DNA of 48,940 nucleotides from Lautropia sp. SCN 69-89 (GTDB taxonomy: Bacteria > Pseudomonadota > Gammaproteobacteria > Burkholderiales > Burkholderiaceae_E): assembly GCA_001724855.1 (NCBI GenBank), contig MEED01000024.1:1-48940 (forward strand), read 5' to 3'. Below are positions 601-31,779 of this stretch, piece after piece. The notes under the pieces were generated by a model. The model saw nothing but the letters and a program-made list of their open reading frames with translations. It was not told where the DNA came from and did no database searches. Both the position numbers and the translations under genes were made by a program. Each line of letters begins with the position of its first letter. Position 1 is the first letter of the stretch.

Positions 601-1750
601 TCGAGGTCGGTTCGGCGATGCGGCTGCCGAGCTTCGTGCCGTGCTTCATCTTGCTGAGCATGTTGGCCAGGAACAGCATCTGGCCGTCGCTCGAGCGGGT
701 GATGAGCGAGTACTCGGGGTCGCCAGCGTGGTCGATGACGAAGCGCGGGTCCTTGATGCCGTCCTTGCCGCCCATGCGCTCGAGGTCGCTCTTCCAGCTC
801 TTGCCATAGGGCGGGTTGGAGAGCATGAAGTCGAATTCGCGCGACGGGAAGGCGTCGTTGGCGAGCGTGGAGTGCTCCGGGCCGCCGACGATGTTGTCCG
901 CGGCGTCGCCTTCGCCCTTGAGCAGCAGGTCGGCCTTGCAGATGGCGTAGGTCTCGGCGTTGATCTCCTGGCCGTAGAGGTGCGTGGCGACTTGCTTGCC
1001 GTGCTGCCTTGCCAGCTCCTGAAGCGTTTCCTCGGCGACCGTCAGCATGCCGCCGGTGCCGAGCGCTCCGTCGTAGAGCAGGTAGGTGCCGGACTCGATC
1101 TCGTCCGCGATCGGCAGAAAGAGAAGCTTTGCCATGAGCTTCACGGCGTCGCGCGGCGTCCAGTGTTCGCCGGCCTCCTCGTTGTTCTCTTCGTTGAAGC
1201 GCCGGACCAGCTCCTCGAACACCGTGCCCATGCCGTGGTTGTCGAGGCCGGCGTGCTTGACCGAGCGGTCGCCGTTCAACACCGGGTTGGGGCTGAGGTT
1301 GATGTCCGGCGAGAGGAACTTCTCGATCAGCGTGCCCAGCGCATCGGCCTTCGACAGCCGCGGGATCTGGTTGCGGAATTCGAAGTTCTCGAGGACGTCC
1401 TGCACGTTTGGCGAGAAGCCATCGAGGTAGGCCTCGAAGTCCGCCTTGAGCTGCTGTTGGCTGGCGCGGGCCTTGAGGTCGCGCAGCGTGAACCGGGACG
1501 TGTTGTCGAAGGCCTGGCCGGCGGCCTGGCGAAGGGCCTGATCCTGGTTGGTGATTCCGGCTTTGTCGAGCGAGGCCTTCATGTCGAGCACGGCCTGCTT
1601 GGTGGGCTCGAGCACGGCATCAAGGCGACGGAGCACCGTCATCGGCAGGATGACGTCGCGGTACTTGCCGCGGACGTAGAGATCCCGCAGGACATCGTCG
1701 GCGATGCCCCAGATGAAGTTGGCGATCCAGTTGAGTTGGGTCGGTTCCAT
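587..1750 (-). pseudogene. hsdM: Type I restriction-modification DNA methyltransferase M subunit, 3'-truncated
   Basis: 387 residues starting MEPTQLNWIANFIWGIADDV. HsdM uses SAM to methylate adenine in the target site chosen by HsdS. The HsdM N-terminal helical domain (about 1-150) is followed by a SAM-binding motif I at 227-234 (DGALGTGG; the usual Cys is Leu here) and the catalytic NPPY at 312-315. The match to the family ends near residue 380 (GTKLGSRIAE); the last few residues read into unrelated sequence. Family members run to about 500 residues, so the C-terminal end of the catalytic domain and the HsdS-contacting tail are missing. The ATG at 1750 lies 3 bases after the fic stop, so the two are co-transcribed. 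Activity is doubtful without the C terminus and hsdS. Confidence 0.8.
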
Positions 1751-1753
1751 GGT

Positions 1754-2920
1754 TCATAGTCCGCCATCGCTGAACAGTGCAATGTACGGTGCATAGCGAA
1801 AGCGCCGGTTCCGCGCATAGCCGGTCATCTCGCTCAGCACACCCAGCTTCACCAGCCGGGACACCAGGCTGTTTGCCGCTGCGTAGGTGGTGCCGGTCAT
1901 CTTCTGCACGTCATTCACGGCGACGATCGGGCGGTCGAACAGCGATTCGAGGACCTTGTGGCCGTTACCCGCCGCGCGGCCGAGTTGCGCCGTGATCGCG
2001 GCGCGGTGCTGCTCGCGCAGTTGCAGGATTCGCCGCGCGGTCTCCGCGGCCTCGCCGGCCACCTCGATCACGCCGCGCAGGAAGAACGCGAGCCACGCTT
2101 CCCAGGCCCCCTGGTCGCGGACCGCCTGCAAGTGCTCGTAGTAAGTCCGCCGGTGCTGCTTGAAGTAGTGCGACAGATACAGCACCGGCTTGTGCAGGAC
2201 GCCGCGCTCGGTGAGCAGGAACGTGATCAGCAGCCGCCCGACGCGCCCGTTGCCGTCGAGGAACGGGTGAATCGTCTCGAACTGCACGTGCGCGAGCGCG
2301 ATCTTCACCAGCGGCGGCAGGTCGTCGGAGGCGTGCAGGAAGTTCTCCAGATCTCCTAGCGCCGCGGGCACCGCGTGGTGCGGCGGCGGCACGAAGGTCG
2401 CGGTGTTCAGCGTGCAGCCAGCCGGGCCGATCCAGTTCTGGCTGGTGCGCAGCTCACCCGGCTGGAGCCTGCCGCCGCGCACGCCGCGTATCAGCTCGGC
2501 GTGGATCTCGCGGATCAGCCGCACCGAAACCGGCAGCTCGGCGAGTCGCGCCAGGCCGTGGTTCATGGCGCGCACATAGTTGATCACTTCGTCCACGTCG
2601 CGCGGCAGGTTCTGCTCGAAGAGTTGCGCCTCGGCGGCGAGCAGGTCCTGCAGCGAGCTTTGCGTGCCCTCGATCTGGCTGGAGAGCACCGCCTCCTTGC
2701 GCACGTACATGAAGACGAAGAGGTCCGGGTTCGGCAGGGTGAGCACCGAGCCGTCGAGCCGGCCCAGCGCCCGGTCGGCGGCGGAAAGCAGGCCCTGAAG
2801 CTCGCCGCCCAATGCGAGTGTGGGCTGTGGCGGCAGGGGTGCCGGCATGAACGCGCGATAGCCCGTGGGCTGGGTGATGTAGCGTCCCGCTCGGGTCGGG
2901 GCTTCGCCGACGGTCGCCAT
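1754..2920 (-). CDS. Fic family protein (probable AMP-transferase) with C-terminal winged helix
   Basis: 388 residues. The Fic core motif HPFLDGNGRVGR is at 218-229, with the catalytic His218 and the nucleotide-anchoring GNGR. An inhibitory-helix motif of S-x-x-x-E-G type (SSQIEGT, 80-86) precedes the core, so the enzyme should be a self-inhibited class II Fic. The C-terminal 80 residues look like a winged helix-turn-helix. Family proteins transfer AMP to hydroxyl side chains of partner proteins; the target is not predictable. It is the first gene of the fic-hsdM unit, and Fic proteins are common in type I restriction islands. It appears intact although its neighbours are decayed. ATG at 2920 was chosen because it precedes the conserved N-terminal region. 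Confidence 0.9.
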   Translation of the reverse strand: MATVGEAPTRAGRYITQPTGYRAFMPAPLPPQPTLALGGELQGLLSAADRALGRLDGSVLTLPNPDLFVFMYVRKEAVLSSQIEGTQSSLQDLLAAEAQLFEQNLPRDVDEVINYVRAMNHGLARLAELPVSVRLIREIHAELIRGVRGGRLQPGELRTSQNWIGPAGCTLNTATFVPPPHHAVPAALGDLENFLHASDDLPPLVKIALAHVQFETIHPFLDGNGRVGRLLITFLLTERGVLHKPVLYLSHYFKQHRRTYYEHLQAVRDQGAWEAWLAFFLRGVIEVAGEAAETARRILQLREQHRAAITAQLGRAAGNGHKVLESLFDRPIVAVNDVQKMTGTTYAAANSLVSRLVKLGVLSEMTGYARNRRFRYAPYIALFSDGGL

Positions 2921-3069
2921 CCAGATGGCTGCCTTTCGTATGGGGCCGGAATTGCTCCATATGATAGGTAGTCTTTAACAAGAGAGGAAGGTGGCGGCCT
3001 TGTTTTAGTTTCCGGAGGGTTCGAGATCGGGACAGGCCGCCGCCCGCTCGACTTTCCTCGGGCGCCGCG

Positions 3070-3476
3070 TCACGACACCGTCCACCACGGTACGGCCAGC
3101 ACGTCGGGGGTCAGCCACTCGATCGTGCGACCGGTGTGCAGCAGGAGTCCGGCGCGCGCCTTGCGCCCGTACTCCTGCCGGAAGGTGCGCAGGTGCGCGC
3201 GGTCGGCGAGGCGCGGCTTCGAGGTGCAGCGCAACGCCAGTGTCGCCCCGGAAGATCCTGGGTGACTTGATGAGCCGCTTCGTACGCTTCTCCGCGCAGG
3301 CCGGCAGGCGCACGAGCAGGTACGAGGTCTCCAGCAGAGTGAGCCAGCGGTGTACCGTCGGCTGCGGCAGGCCGACGTCGCTGCCCAGCTCGGTCTGGTT
3401 GAGGAGCTGCCACACGCGCAGGCAGGCGGCGCGCATCAGGCGGCGGAAGTCGGGTAGCGCGCTGATCGTGAGCGGA
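3070..3476 (-). pseudogene. Remnant of a DUF4143-type AAA ATPase
   Basis: The minus strand reads ISALPDFRRLM, then NQTELGSDVGLPQPTVHRWL and LLETSYLLVRLPA...SPRIFRGDTGVALHL. These match the C-terminal region of DUF4143 AAA ATPases. The match then jumps frame and continues as SKPRLADRAHLRTFRQEYGR...HTGRTIEWLTPDVLAVPWWT, ending at a stop at 3070-3072. The N-terminal ATPase domain is absent, and part of the nuclease-like middle region was deleted near 3235 with a frameshift. Longer open frames across this stretch are artefacts of GC-rich sequence. No function is expected. Confidence 0.65.
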
Positions 3477-3482
3477 TGGGCG

Positions 3483-4565
3483 CTACAGCAACCCGTCGTC
3501 CTCGAGGTCTCGTAGCGCGTCGGGGCGGATCATCACCTTGTATTTCCTGCGCAGCGGCACGACTCCGGGATCGAAGTTCCTCAGCAGGTCCTCGTGCTGC
3601 GCGGCAACGAACTCGCGCATGCGCTCGGCTTCGCGCGCTTCCAGCGCACGCAGTCCGGCCAACGGACGTCCCATGCGCCGGCAGTCGTTCAGGAACGTCG
3701 CGAACCGGACCGCCGCGAGCGCCTCCGGATCACTGAAGACGACGAGCAGGTTGCGCTCGTCCGGGCGCTGATCCTCCCACGGGTGGTCGTCGAGGAAGCA
3801 CACGTGCCGGCGCTGCTCGCAGAAAATCCGACCCAGTTCGCTGCGGCGACGGGACTGCTCCTCCCAGACCCTGTGCTTCAACTCCCCGAGCAGCGCTTCC
3901 TGTCCACCGGCGTCCACCCGCATGTCCCACCGGACGGAACCGCTCTCGTCGCGCTTGCCGTCTTCCGGTCCACGGACATGACGATGCGGAATGCGGACTT
4001 CGATCTCGGCGTTCGCGGCTTCCTCCATGGAGCCGTACAGATGCCAGGACGCCATCGTCAACGTCAGGTAGCACAGTCGCCCGTCCACGAGCACGCGCGC
4101 CCATGTGCCGTGCAGCGAACCGGTGTAGGGCTCCGCCACGTAGCCCTCGAACTCGCGCTGGTTGGCGTCCTGCTGGAAGGCGTGGTCGTTGCGATCGTAG
4201 TCGAGCAGTGTCGCGAAATCGAGGATGCTGCTGCCTTCGGCAAAGTGCTCGTTGAGCGAGAAGGTGTCTTCACCGATTCCCTGGAGTGGCTGCAACCACT
4301 CGTTGACGCGGTTCTGCAAATCGAGCGGGACGCGGCCGCGAGACTCGAGCCTGGCCCGCGCTACGCGACGACGCTCGCCGTGCTCGCGCAGCAGCGCCGA
4401 GAGGATGGCCTCGCGGTCGTCGTTGGGCAGATTCACTCGATACCGGAGCTGTTCCTCGGCCGACCACGTGAAGAACTCGGGGCGGGCGACCATCACCGCA
4501 CGGCGCAGTTCGGGCGTCCAGCGGTCGAAGCCGGTGACGCATGCGGGGTCGGAGGCGGGAGTCAC
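3483..4565 (-). CDS. Hypothetical protein, 360 residues
   Basis: I do not recognise this protein. It starts at GTG 4565, preceded by GGAGG 12 bases upstream, and opens MTPASDPACVTGFDRWTPEL. It is soluble, rich in Glu, Asp and Arg, and has no signal peptide or membrane segment. The C-terminal third has charged helices (REAERMREF and similar). The gene ends 6-7 bases before the DUF4143 remnant begins, so it may have replaced the 5' part of that gene. It lies in a cluster with restriction, Fic and toxin-antitoxin genes, which suggests a defence or mobile-element role, but nothing in the sequence shows an activity. A later ATG at 4493 is possible. Confidence 0.65.
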   Translation of the reverse strand: MTPASDPACVTGFDRWTPELRRAVMVARPEFFTWSAEEQLRYRVNLPNDDREAILSALLREHGERRRVARARLESRGRVPLDLQNRVNEWLQPLQGIGEDTFSLNEHFAEGSSILDFATLLDYDRNDHAFQQDANQREFEGYVAEPYTGSLHGTWARVLVDGRLCYLTLTMASWHLYGSMEEAANAEIEVRIPHRHVRGPEDGKRDESGSVRWDMRVDAGGQEALLGELKHRVWEEQSRRRSELGRIFCEQRRHVCFLDDHPWEDQRPDERNLLVVFSDPEALAAVRFATFLNDCRRMGRPLAGLRALEAREAERMREFVAAQHEDLLRNFDPGVVPLRRKYKVMIRPDALRDLEDDGLL

Positions 4566-4644
4566 GAGCGTAATTTTCCTCCGAGACGGCGCGGATGGGG
4601 CGGTCCGCCAGCCGGACGATCGGCACGCTGCACTCGCTACCGAG

Positions 4645-4712
4645 CGCTACCGATTGATGCGTTTGCATTCGCGGAATCGATTTCACGAGCGGAAACGCAT
4701 CAATCGGTAGCG
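4645..4712. repeat. Perfect 20-bp inverted repeat with 28-base loop
   Basis: CGCTACCGATTGATGCGTTT at 4645-4664 is exactly complementary to 4693-4712. The loop (4665-4692) contains the palindrome AATCGATT. It lies in the 220-base gap between the vapC stop and the start of the hypothetical gene, both on the minus strand. There is no T-run, so a standard intrinsic terminator is unlikely. Size and symmetry fit a small mobile palindrome (REP or MITE-like) or a protein-binding site. Confidence 0.8.
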
Positions 4713-4785
4713 ACGCCTCCGCAAGCGGCGTTCGTTTCGGCCGACGGCGAATATTGCGTGGCGGCGAGCCGTACAGGCGGGACCA

Positions 4786-5190
4786 TCACGGCGCCATCAG
4801 CGCTTCGGCGAGCGACCGGGTCAGCGAAGGCGCCGCCGCGCGCAGGCGTGCGTCTTCCGTGACCAGCGGCGAGCGCAGTTTCTCGGCAACCGCGAGGAAC
4901 CGGGCGTCATAGGCCGAGACGCCGAAGCGGCGGGCGTGCTCGAGAGCCACGCGATGCGGCAGCGCGATCAGGCCCCGCAGCCGCGATTCCGCGGTGGCGA
5001 GCAAGGCTTCGGCCTGGCTGCGGGCGAGGTCTCCGCTGCGCTCGTAGGTGGCGAGGATGTTGGAGAACTCGATCAGCAGGAAGGCTTCGCTCCTCCACTC
5101 CGGGTCGAGGGCGTAGAGGGCCTGGGCGTCCCGGGTCCGGTCGCCCTCGATCAGCAGGTAGGCGACGATGTTCGTGTCGACGACCAGCAC
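4786..5190 (-). CDS. vapC: PIN-domain toxin, VapC-like ribonuclease
   Basis: 134 residues from GTG at 5190 (VLVVDTNIVAYLLIEG). The fold and the acidic residues fit a PIN-domain nuclease: Asp5 in the DTN motif, Glu41, Asp95 in YDARFLA and Asp113 in TED. VapC toxins cut specific RNAs using Mg2+ and are neutralised by the antitoxin encoded just upstream. A longer frame begins at TTG 5223 inside the antitoxin, but the GTG matches the usual family start right before the first beta strand and leaves a 13-base gap after the antitoxin stop. The pair forms a typical two-gene operon. Confidence 0.88.
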   Translation of the reverse strand: MLVVDTNIVAYLLIEGDRTRDAQALYALDPEWRSEAFLLIEFSNILATYERSGDLARSQAEALLATAESRLRGLIALPHRVALEHARRFGVSAYDARFLAVAEKLRSPLVTEDARLRAAAPSLTRSLAEALMAP

Positions 5191-5203
5191 GATCCGGCGC
5201 CGT

Positions 5204-5434
5204 TCAGTCGCGCCCGGCGGCAATCGCCGCCTCGATCTCGTCGATGTTCAAGGGCCTGCGTCGCTCGAGCTTCACGGGTTTCGGCGGGCGCGTCGGCGGC
5301 TCGGCGCTGGGCGCATGCGCCAGGCCGATCTCGAGCAGTTGCGCGATCGCGTCCTTCAGTTTCTGGTCGCGTGCCGCCGCGCGCATGCGAATGCGCCGGG
5401 CGAGGTCGTCAGGCAGTTCGAGGGTGGTCTTCAC
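5204..5434 (-). CDS. vapB: VapB-like antitoxin
   Basis: 76 residues from GTG at 5434: VKTTLELPDDLARRIRMRAA, then an alpha-helical stretch and a Pro-rich, basic tail (PPTRPPKPVKLERRR). The N terminus reads as a ribbon-helix-helix DNA-binding domain; the tail should wrap around the toxin. Such antitoxins bind the toxin and repress their own operon. The frame is open upstream to 5587, but conserved sequence starts at the GTG, and a candidate promoter (GATAAT) sits just before it. A 13-base gap separates it from vapC. Confidence 0.82.
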   Translation of the reverse strand: MKTTLELPDDLARRIRMRAAARDQKLKDAIAQLLEIGLAHAPSAEPPTRPPKPVKLERRRPLNIDEIEAAIAAGRD

Positions 5435-5439
5435 CCGGC

Positions 5440-5475
5440 AATTATCCCAGAAATATGGCATTCGGGGAATATGGG
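5440..5475 (-). promoter_or_regulatory. Candidate vapBC promoter and operator
   Basis: On the minus strand a GATAAT box, -10-like, lies within the 15 bases before the vapB GTG. On the plus strand AATATGG occurs twice, at 5452-5458 and 5468-5474, spaced 16 bases start to start, with GCATTCGGGG between. Direct heptamers this close to the start would suit binding by ribbon-helix-helix dimers. No good -35 was found, so the promoter is tentative. Confidence 0.4.
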
Positions 5476-5571
5476 CAGTCCCTCGTCGCTCGGGGCCAGC
5501 GTGTACGATTCCGGGGCGCGGGCCGCTACCGGCCTGCGACTGGCGCAATCCATCTCCGAGACCACCCCACG

Positions 5572-6600
5572 ATGACGGACCCCTCATCGCTCGACGCCGA
5601 TCGGCTGCTCGGGCTCTACCACACGATGTGCCGCATCCGCGCGTTCGAGGACGCGGCCGAGGAGGCCAGCCGCGGCGGCGTGGCCGCGTTCGGCCAGGCG
5701 GGAAGCGGGCGTGCGCAGGTGCGCGGGCCGCTGCACCTTTCCACCGGGCAGGAGGCAGTGGCCACCGGCGTGTGCGCGCATCTGCGCGCCGACGACTGGC
5801 TGACCTCGACGCACCGTGGGCACGGCCACACGATCGCCAAGGGCGCGAACCTCGAGCGGATGATGCATGAGCTGTTCGGCCGCGCGAGCGGCTTTTGCGG
5901 CGGCAAGGGCGGGTCGATGCACATCGCCGACTTCTCGGTGGGCATGCTCGGCGCCAACGGCGTGGTCGCCGCCGGGATCCCGATCGCGGTCGGTGCGGCG
6001 CAATCGATGCGGGTGCAGGGCCGCGACGCGATCGCGACGACCTTTTTCGGCGATGGCGCGCTCAATCGCGGGCCGTTCGCCGAGAGCCTGAACTGGGCGG
6101 CCGCGTTCGAGCTGCCGGTGCTGTTCGTCTGCGAGGACAACCGCTGGTCGGCCACGACGCGCACCGAGGCCATGTCGGCCGGCGAAGGCGCGGCGGCGCG
6201 CGCCCGCGGTTTCGGCGTGCCGGCGATCGAAGTCGACGGCATGGACGTCGAGGCGGTCTGGACGGCAGCGCGCGAACTGGTGGCGCAGGTGCGCGCGGGC
6301 GAGGGTCCTCGACTGCTGCACGCGAAGACCTACCGGTTCAAGGGCCACGTCTCGGTCGATCCGGCCGCGTATCGCGACCCGCGCGAGCTCGCGGCGGCGA
6401 TGAACGACGATCCGCTGCTGCTCGCGCAGCGCAGGCTGGTCGAGCGCGGCGTCGCGAACGAGGCGATCGAGGCGCGGATGCGCGCGGCGCGCGACGAGGT
6501 CGCCGCGGCGCTGGCCTCGGCCGACGCCGCAGCGTGGCCGCAGCTGCAGGCGGCGTTCGAGGACGTACAGGACACCGGGAGCGGCCGATGGTTCAGCTGA
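5572..6600 (+). CDS. Thiamine pyrophosphate-dependent dehydrogenase E1 component, alpha subunit
   Basis: 342 residues. The TPP-binding signature runs from GDGALN (160-165) to the closing Asn190 of VCEDN. HLSTGQEAV (55-63) and THRGHGHTIAKG (80-91) are standard for E1 alpha of pyruvate, acetoin or branched-chain 2-oxo acid dehydrogenases. The protein would decarboxylate a 2-oxo acid or acetoin and pass the acyl unit to a lipoyl-E2. An insertion of about 12 residues (near 38-50) precedes the HLSTGQ motif. The beta subunit follows with a 13-base overlap. No E2 or E3 is nearby, so the substrate is open; acetoin/pyruvate-type is my best guess. ATG 5572 is where homology begins. Confidence 0.88.
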   Translation: MTDPSSLDADRLLGLYHTMCRIRAFEDAAEEASRGGVAAFGQAGSGRAQVRGPLHLSTGQEAVATGVCAHLRADDWLTSTHRGHGHTIAKGANLERMMHELFGRASGFCGGKGGSMHIADFSVGMLGANGVVAAGIPIAVGAAQSMRVQGRDAIATTFFGDGALNRGPFAESLNWAAAFELPVLFVCEDNRWSATTRTEAMSAGEGAAARARGFGVPAIEVDGMDVEAVWTAARELVAQVRAGEGPRLLHAKTYRFKGHVSVDPAAYRDPRELAAAMNDDPLLLAQRRLVERGVANEAIEARMRAARDEVAAALASADAAAWPQLQAAFEDVQDTGSGRWFS

Positions 6601-29194: not shown

Positions 29195-29235
29195 TTGAAC
29201 GAACTCATTGTCCATCAGGAATGCAGGAGGCGCAA

Positions 29236-30792
<1,557 letters not shown>

Positions 30793-30802
30793 GCTCCGCG
30801 AA

Positions 30803-31316
30803 GGCAGGCACGGCGTGTGGGCCAGGGCGCGGGGCCGGGGCGCGAAGCGCGGGCAAGCCGAGCCCGGGGGGCAGGGCGGGCCCGAAGGGCGCAACGGCAG
30901 CGGCGGGCGCCGTGCCGGGCCATGGGCGGCCGCCGGCGCCTCTGCCCCCGACTCGCCGCATGCGCGCCCAGCCGGCGCGGCGCGCGAAGGCGCTGTCCTG
31001 CGGAAACGCTTGGTCGCGCGGACGCGAAGCCCGGACCGTCGGCCCCAACTCGGTCCCCCTTCGGGGGCCCTCAGACAGGGGCCGACTCGCGCTTCGCGCG
31101 TCCGGTCTTCGCTGCGCTCCCGCGCCAGCGCCTACGCGCGCCGCGCCGGCTGGGCGCGCATGCGGCGAGTCGGGGCCAGGCGCCGGCGGCCGCCCATGGC
31201 CCCGCACGGCACCCGCCGCTGCCGTTGCGCCCTTCGGGCCCGCCCTGCCCCCCGGGCTCGGCATGCCCGCGCTTCGCGCCCCGGCCTCGCGCCCTGGCCC
31301 ACACACCGTGCCTGCC
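30803..31316. repeat. Giant nested palindrome, about 514 bp
   Basis: This 645-base gap (30793-31437) is filled largely by one inverted repeat. Left arm 30803-30995 (193 bp) and right arm 31126-31316 (191 bp) pair with about seven substitutions and one 2-base indel, about 96% identity. The 130-base centre is itself symmetric: TCGGCCCC (31039-31046) pairs with GGGGCCGA (31078-31085), and CCCCC-TTC-GGGGG forms the tip near 31061, close to the centre of the whole. Open frames on both strands encode the same Arg/Gly/Pro-rich peptide, which is a consequence of the symmetry and not evidence of a gene. No transposase is present. Probable origin: inverted duplication or a mobile palindromic element. 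Confidence 0.9.
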
Positions 31317-31437
31317 GTCGCTCCGCTGAAATGAACCAGCACCAGCGGCCTGCTTCGAGTGGCGCGAGAATCCGATGGCTGGACGATGGCGTGGATGTTG
31401 CGCGGTGGGTCCGGTCGGTCGACGGGGGGAGCGGGCG

Positions 31438-31779
31438 ATGAGCTTGTCGGTGGGTCAGGCCTGGGCGGTGCTGTTGGTGGCGGGGCTGTTCGAGATCGTC
31501 TGGGCGCTGGGGTTGAAGTACAGCGACGGGTTCTCGAAGCTGTGGCCGTCGGTGGTGGTGGTCGTGGGGGCGGCGGTGAGCTTCTGGCTGCTGGCGCTGG
31601 CGATGCGTTCGCTGCCGGCGGGAACTGCGTATGCGGTGTGGACGGGCATCGGCGCCGCGGGCACCGCGCTGTTGGGAATCATGCTGCTCGGCGAATCGGC
31701 GAGCGTGGTGCGGCTGGGCTGCATCGCGCTGATCGTGCTGGGCGTGTTGGGGTTGAAGTTCGCCGGCGACGCATCGTGA
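31438..31779 (+). CDS. sugE: Small multidrug resistance family transporter, SugE/Gdx type
   Basis: 113 residues, four transmembrane helices. Glu19 in the first helix (LFEIVWALGLKYS) is the proton/substrate-coupling residue. GTAYAVWTGIGAAGTALLGI in helix 3 is the SugE/Gdx signature; characterised members export guanidinium. A GGGGGGAG sequence precedes ATG 31438. I looked for a guanidine riboswitch upstream and did not find one. It is 34 bases ahead of gabD and may be co-transcribed. Confidence 0.9.
   Translation: MSLSVGQAWAVLLVAGLFEIVWALGLKYSDGFSKLWPSVVVVVGAAVSFWLLALAMRSLPAGTAYAVWTGIGAAGTALLGIMLLGESASVVRLGCIALIVLGVLGLKFAGDAS

Follow-up and report, generated by a model that had tools for sequence, protein, structure and literature searches.

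The DNA between the mmsA- and sugE-called genes in a 48,940-nt stretch of Lautropia sp. SCN 69-89 (contig MEED01000024.1, hereafter the window) raises the question whether the very long palindrome read there is genuine and, if so, what keeps its two arms alike. A first-pass annotation, made from the letters of the sequence, had placed the palindrome at 30803-31316, with arms of 193 and 191 bp around a centre of 130 bases. By extending the arms outward from a conserved central segment, hereafter the head, we obtained a span of 524 bp (30798-31321), the ends of which agree with the earlier ones to within 5 bases; by this extended boundary, 5 nt separate the mmsA stop codon (gene end 30792) from the start of the palindrome (Table 1). 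The nested symmetry described for the centre, down to a CCCCC-TTC-GGGGG tip, is seen both in the sequence and in the fold. Aligned with each other, the window's arms match in 182 of 192 columns, with 8 mismatches and 2 gaps, and an inverted-repeat search recovered them as a 144-nt and a 54-nt piece with 96% complementarity in both, the inner pair being separated by 130 nt. RNA folding of the palindrome gave a predicted energy of -571.9 kcal/mol compared to -339.2 (sd 7.9) for 100 shuffles (z = -29.5), a predicted pairing far beyond chance.

Table 1. The palindrome and its neighbouring genes in the window (gene names are those of the first-pass annotation)
Feature	Position	Strand	Description
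"mmsA"	29221..30792	+	523-aa open frame, aldehyde dehydrogenase-like; head lies behind it in sense orientation
Left arm	30798..30989	+	192 bp; locus-specific; orthologous arms in G014 and G005
Head	30990..31131	+	142 nt; conserved, structured; member of a dispersed family; covariance model R1, 152.1 bits
Right arm	31132..31321	+	190 bp; mirrors the left arm as its reverse complement (95% identity in the alignment)
"sugE"	31438..31779	+	113 aa, small membrane protein; next gene downstream

G000 denotes the window's own genome and G001-G017 the other genomes of the genus, in which the orthologous gap was located via the downstream sugE-called gene. The palindrome is present with both arms in the orthologous mmsA gap of G014 and G005, in the latter on a 3.73-Mb contig, and in G009 two contigs terminate inside the equivalent stretch, carrying the mmsA palindrome's two arms. 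Since two further assemblies carry both arms in that gap, the palindrome of the window is real, and the assembly fold-back that had initially been considered is excluded. A recent origin, also considered, does not agree with the outer boundaries common to G000, G014 and G005; from such shared boundaries we conclude that the arms at mmsA, and likewise those at gspE, are older than the species split. That an artefact of assembly or polishing pasted one arm onto the other is accordingly very improbable: several draft copies do lie at contig ends (G009 C3, C22, C31 and C37), but independent assemblies, including the 3.73-Mb contig, show equal boundaries and both arms, the window copy retains 8 mismatches, and arms differing by 30% could not have been collapsed into each other. 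A few unmirrored mismatches may be hidden by short-read assembly. Draft contigs were seen to end in or near palindromes (G009 C3, C22, C31, C35 and C37; G000:C15:360-507), and draft copy numbers are therefore probably too low. Elsewhere in the genus, the mmsA gap holds, as judged by eye, arms without a head in G015 and one remaining arm in G006; the mmsA-sugE gap measures 5-95 bp in G004, G011, G012 and G013, and 169 bp in G002, where it contains a different inverted repeat.

The first-pass annotation had also suggested a mobile palindromic element, of which the dispersal of the head over different loci was borne out and the joint movement of the arms was not, as the arms are not carried along as a single family. 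A search of G000 with the window sequence yielded a second head on contig C15 and, besides the palindrome itself, only this head and one 31-bp stretch (both strands); arms dispersed as a family of the own genome were rejected on this basis. Across 61 genomes (own included), copies in the genus were matched mostly over the central ~150 bp only. BLAST on the fetched loci provided 49 heads, of which one cut by a contig end (L039) was dropped, and the alignment A1, on which the covariance model was built, comprises 43 distinct full heads, five rows identical to others being left out. The model gave 58 matches in 10 of the 18 genus genomes, some of them partial or weak (at contig ends of G009, two in G003 and one in G005). 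G008, G003 and G005, the least fragmented carriers (20, 3 and 4 contigs), had 16, 15 and 13 matches, respectively, and the remaining seven carriers 1-4 each. A search of the GTDB family (74 genomes) found just the 10 genus carriers and none of the 56 genomes outside the genus; in an order-level sample of 300 genomes the only match outside the genus was a weak one (G145, E 2.7e-4), probably due to chance. The exact head pattern, sought in 84,980 species represented by a single genome each, occurred in 27 stretches, from records named Zeimonas arvi and from MAGs labelled Burkholderiaceae, Lautropia or Limnobacter, which correspond to the genus genomes G001, G005, G006, G007, G008, G014 and G015. 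Phages and plasmids gave no match and viral contigs no exact-pattern match, and a plasmid, phage or viral origin was rejected on this ground. Taken together, these results define a genus-restricted family of long interrupted palindromes with a conserved, covarying head of 136-146 nt and, in most copies, locus-specific arms.

Of the family's 31 distinct positions, heuristic gene calling places 25 downstream of a gene in sense orientation. Five are placed otherwise: the copy in the S10/L3 gap is antisense, another is a divergent site, and the rest are second members of pairs that adjoin surE-like, argG-like and usp-like genes. One further position is without assignment. These contexts combine a heuristic ORF caller with our own reading, copies of G007 on C148, C62 and C168 being left out. 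Pfam matched 28 of 30 chosen ORFs (E <=0.001; the others are L032:1347-1559 and L054:1352-2371), and three calls were made by eye, namely the surE-like gene beside one copy, the peptidase of L062 and the cation-ATPase-like end in L032. At the S10/L3 site (L028, G005:C1:2608400-2610600), two adjacent palindromes (628-947 and 991-1203) lie between the two genes, with one head antisense. The position just behind mmsA fits the terminating hairpin that had initially been proposed, but the longest T run in the 40 nt 3' of the right arm is 2 in the 17 long-arm copies (group defined below), and the antisense copy between S10 and L3 likewise speaks against it. An intrinsic (Rho-independent) terminator was rejected, since no U-tract follows these 17 copies.

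The head is predicted to form 36 base pairs, of which 16 show double changes. In 99.0% of its cells the pairing is kept, compared to 86.0% in shuffled and 30-46% in slid alignments. Neither this percentage nor the covariation score was reached by any of 500 shuffles, and the number of further pair types was not in excess (260 of 500 shuffles); in such a test, related rows can beat shuffles even without a structure. The loop of hairpin IV reads TTC, TGC or TAC in all 43 rows, that is TNC, or GNA on the other strand, and in hairpins I and IV together the loops of the 43 heads are mostly TNC, equivalent to GNA on the minus strand. GNA loops are very stable in single-stranded DNA. A known Rfam RNA was rejected: with Rfam 15 the window had no match at the gathering score and, at a permissive threshold, one chance-level match (E 9.5).

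Between species, orthologous heads differ at 1 of 142 positions at mmsA (two comparisons), 1 of 136 at gspE, 1 of 136 at maoC and 6 of 139 at oppA. At the rate of 4-fold degenerate sites, about 17-18 changes would be expected in the gspE and mmsA heads of G000 and G005, where 1 is seen (P ~1e-6 or less). The mmsA head is 0.99-1.00 identical across three species and 0.89-0.90 identical to the gspE head, and, as it stays distinct in all three, it has not been overwritten by the gspE type. We read this conservation as purifying selection on the mmsA head, and the suggestion that the element is selected thus finds support for the head, most clearly at mmsA. Within G005, the gspE and maoC heads are 0.99 alike, and several heads at separate loci are at least 0.99 alike, so that recent spread or overwriting is possible there; for this reason the argument for selection leans mainly on mmsA. 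Heads of G003 and G008 are only 0.83-0.97 identical.

The arms, measured in 48 copies, behave differently from the head. In a long-arm group (G000, G005, G006, G014 and G015; 18 copies), arms are 98-205 bp long and 92-99% symmetric in 17 copies, the remaining one having an arm of 37 bp; G009, whose copies are cut by contig ends, probably belongs to this group as well. Copies in G003 and G008 usually have a near-perfect stem of ~30-40 bp, and some also pair more weakly outside it. Two of the 48 heads are practically armless (L044, G007:C198:4100-5436, and L048_995 in G003; 1 and 12 bp), and could show the element before arm growth or after arm loss. Between loci, arms are unrelated or only weakly alike, with the exception of two G005 paralogues (90%).

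Comparison of orthologous arms indicated that most changes in one arm are mirrored in the other. At gspE, G000 and G005 each have arms (98 and 99 bp) that match perfectly save for an A.A adjoining the head, and between the two genomes 29 columns are mirrored (28 substitutions in 97 columns and one gap column) and one is not, namely this A.A, which both species keep. The other comparisons, gap columns included, gave 73 mirrored and 25 unmirrored columns for mmsA in G000/G005, 115 and 10 in G000/G014, 124 and 17 in G014/G005, 95 and 19 for maoC in G005/G006, 58 and 16 for oppA in G006/G015, and 17 and 7 for the two G005 paralogues; these counts are sensitive to how arms of low similarity are aligned, and arm ends were placed by best symmetry, which favours symmetric columns. 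The co-variation of the arms, named early on as a check, is hence positive in seven comparisons. At mmsA of G014 the outer ends are unchanged and a block of ~90 bp is absent from both arms. In the 11 loci common to G003 and G008, the two species share an identity of 0.52-0.74 over the 30-bp stems, whose symmetry within a species is at least 0.83 in 19 of 22; the other three stems (prfC and ALDH in G003, pmtA in G008) have a symmetry of 0.62-0.74. The pattern is thus that of a quasipalindrome, with mirrored changes, multi-base blocks and no wobble signature, the exceptions being the armless copies L044 and L048_995 and these three weakly symmetric stems.

Compared with the yardsticks available for G000 and G005, that is 12-13% divergence at 4-fold sites and 25-32% in the spacer just outside the palindrome, the arms diverge at about the rate of nearby spacer with their mirror symmetry kept. 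The right arm at uvrD in G005 repeats, in inverted form, the final codons and the stop of that gene, and the other uvrD ends printed (12 of 12) are without this palindrome; at maoC (G006 and G005) the final codons of the upstream gene lie inside the mirrored stretch. Outward extension by copying of one flank into the other arm would fit both loci. The G005 mmsA copy (L026) carries a ~12-bp GGCCGC-type tandem expansion in its left arm only, which is unmirrored and presumably young.

To separate copying at the DNA level from selection at the RNA level, the kinds of mismatch are informative. Among 47 mismatches in 2237 arm pairs of the 18 long-arm-group copies, 9 are G.T and 18 A.C. RNase P of 17 genus genomes, used as control, had 121 GU and 6 AC cells (28 GU and 4 AC columns), and the head, scored in the same manner, 29 GU and 13 AC cells (6 GU and 9 AC columns), with 23 of the 29 GU cells in one column. 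The Fisher test against RNase P, which for the head is like for like, gave P = 0.0014 (columns); for the arms it gave 3e-12 on cells that are not independent, and here the two sides are not strictly comparable, since G.U but not A.C is allowed in a predicted RNA structure. Neither head nor arms show an excess of G.U over A.C, unlike RNase P of the genus, and, given its absence from the arm mismatches, DNA copying from arm to arm explains the symmetry better than RNA selection does.

These observations bear directly on an account in which all 524 nt of the hairpin serve as a functional mRNA 3' end, its arms kept alike by compensatory mutation under selection. The sense position behind genes at 25 of 31 positions, the extreme folding energy and the covariation of the head would all agree with it; we nonetheless consider it improbable, since G.T is not above A.C in arms or head as it is in RNase P (for the arms with the reservation just given), the ~90-bp block is gone from both arms of G014, and single steps are implausible for ~98 consecutive perfect pairs at nearly 30% base change. 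The missing wobble signature would rather favour an element acting as DNA, a cruciform or hairpin between genes that is bound by a nucleoid protein or a topoisomerase, as is the case for REP/BIME sequences in E. coli. The invariant TNC (GNA) loop of hairpin IV in 43 of 43 rows and the head pairs between convergent genes point in the same direction, but the prevalence of single sense copies between co-directional genes is not predicted by such a role; binding of the copies by nucleoid protein or topoisomerase is putative, and this account as a whole is doubtful, if still to be reckoned with.

Unlikely, too, is a selfish repeat of REP/BIME or MITE type, in which an enzyme moves a head devoid of host function and overwriting between copies mimics conservation. 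Several features resemble such repeats: the positions are dispersed and group-specific, heads are near-identical at several G005 loci, all 11 pairs of neighbouring heads, some of them orthologous, are arranged tail to tail, and each of the 18 long-arm-group copies has a minus-strand GTAG at the foot of the hairpin, a feature of many REPs. GTAG is, however, present in 0 of 22 printed arm ends of G003 and G008, the mmsA head remains unlike gspE-type heads over three species, and phages, plasmids and viral contigs (the latter by exact pattern) are without match. The Y1-type transposase PF01797, the sole mobilising enzyme sought, was detected in 3 of 18 genus genomes (G010, G012 and G017) and in none of the 10 carriers, and a RAYT/REP system was rejected on that basis.

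We therefore favour, with a probability of roughly 60%, a genus-restricted palindrome family with mutually templating arms, a selected head, and long arms that are tolerated where an SbcCD-like nuclease is lacking. When the locus becomes single-stranded during replication or repair, the arms would pair as a hairpin capped by the head, and one arm would template the other, by quasipalindrome template switching or hairpin-templated repair. A new mutation would in this way be removed or passed on to the opposite arm, and the palindrome could grow outward when a neighbouring gene end is copied into the far arm. With less certainty, the selected head may act at transcript 3' ends, where it could shape or protect the mRNA end or bind a protein, and this would account for its usual sense position behind genes. 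Long perfect arms would be largely a by-product of DNA copying, tolerated where an SbcCD-like hairpin nuclease is missing. The family itself, its structure, the mirrored divergence, the strong conservation of the mmsA head and the missing wobble signature are observed, and from them we infer the arm templating, the outward growth, the SbcCD-like control of length, the selection on heads in general and the role at transcript ends. That the family represents a new kind of element, in which a selected, structured head sits on mutually templating arms whose shape is kept as their sequence drifts and whose length an SbcCD-like nuclease sets, is a tentative proposal that we would put forward with reserve.

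With respect to the nuclease, the SbcD model (TIGR00619) had a match at cut-off in just one of the 74 family genomes. A partial match to it (~1e-14) is present in all four carriers outside the long-arm group (G003, G008, G007 and G001), and no SbcD-like match was found in the six carriers of that group (G000, G005, G006, G009, G014 and G015) or in the head-less genus genomes G002, G010, G012, G013, G016 and G017; G011 and G004 have weaker SbcD matches. In G003 the match falls on a 424-aa metallophosphoesterase that precedes an AAA_27 ATPase (L199, G003:C1:1058000-1065000, 1679-6477), and relatives of the matched protein occur in G003, G008, G007 and G001 only, with none in the long-arm genomes. 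The link between an SbcCD-like nuclease and arm length is a lead only, since it is a single correlated difference between two groups.

Quasipalindrome correction, or template-switch mutation, was reportedly treated by van Noort in 2003. The arms of human X/Y palindromes are much larger than the 100-200 bp arms found here around a 140-bp head. Those arms are reported to evolve in concert via gene conversion (PMC8981503, PMC3723533). Arm-to-arm copying perfects imperfect inverted repeats according to passages on quasipalindromes (PMC8794818, PMC7202029), and template switching can make multi-base compensatory changes in one step (PMC8794818, in part). The cases covered in that portion of PMC8794818 are stems of RNA genes and usually involve few bases, whereas here arms of ~100-200 bp remain near-perfect through ~30% divergence, with a conserved head between them, and do so at numerous loci within a single bacterial genus. 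In mitochondrial coding palindromes of Nematomorpha, long perfect inverted repeats are gained and lost between species, their arm identity is thought to be kept by a conversion mechanism, and a shared conserved centre is not mentioned in the sections concerned (PMC6649704); the present family is bacterial, lies between genes and has a conserved, structured head. The Rickettsia palindromic elements, likewise lineage-specific dispersed palindromic repeats, lie in coding genes and lose arm identity with time, as stated in a passage of the same report (PMC6649704), whereas the copies described here lie between genes and mostly keep it. REP/BIME sequences, according to the part of PMC2817692 dealing with them, are dispersed extragenic palindromes in inverted pairs, to which the GTAG foot of the long-arm group adds a further likeness; REPs are, however, roughly 20-40 nt long with usually >100 copies (PMC2817692), compared to a head of ~140 nt in up to 16 copies, long locus-specific arms and carriers lacking RAYT. 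The copying mechanism is thus already known, as far as these portions of PMC8794818 and PMC6649704 go; neither the family nor the scale of the effect was found described in the open-licence literature searched.

Compensatory changes in stems are widely taken as a sign of functional RNA. In this family, double changes over ~100-bp stems at natural bacterial loci are better explained by DNA copying, a case backed by a neutral yardstick and the RNase P control, and suggesting caution in covariation-based RNA discovery. The loci also offer a natural system in which copying between palindrome arms can be measured, the tolerance of 500-bp palindromes by some bacteria becomes testable through presence or absence of an SbcCD-like nuclease, and the conserved heads point to an element that follows many genes in environmental Burkholderiaceae.

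A second type of inverted repeat, ~120 bp long with ends like GAACG(T/C)GTGAAGGAA, was observed behind genes in the genus, for example in the mmsA-sugE gap of G002 (L138, 1879) and at the uvrD 3' end of G003 (L164, 1375). In the palindromes of the first family the outer arm ends vary between loci, and only two G005 copies share GAACGTGTGAACGAA ends. The outer ends (GAACGTGTGAACGAA) of the G005 palindromes L030_1482 and L032 resemble those of the second type.
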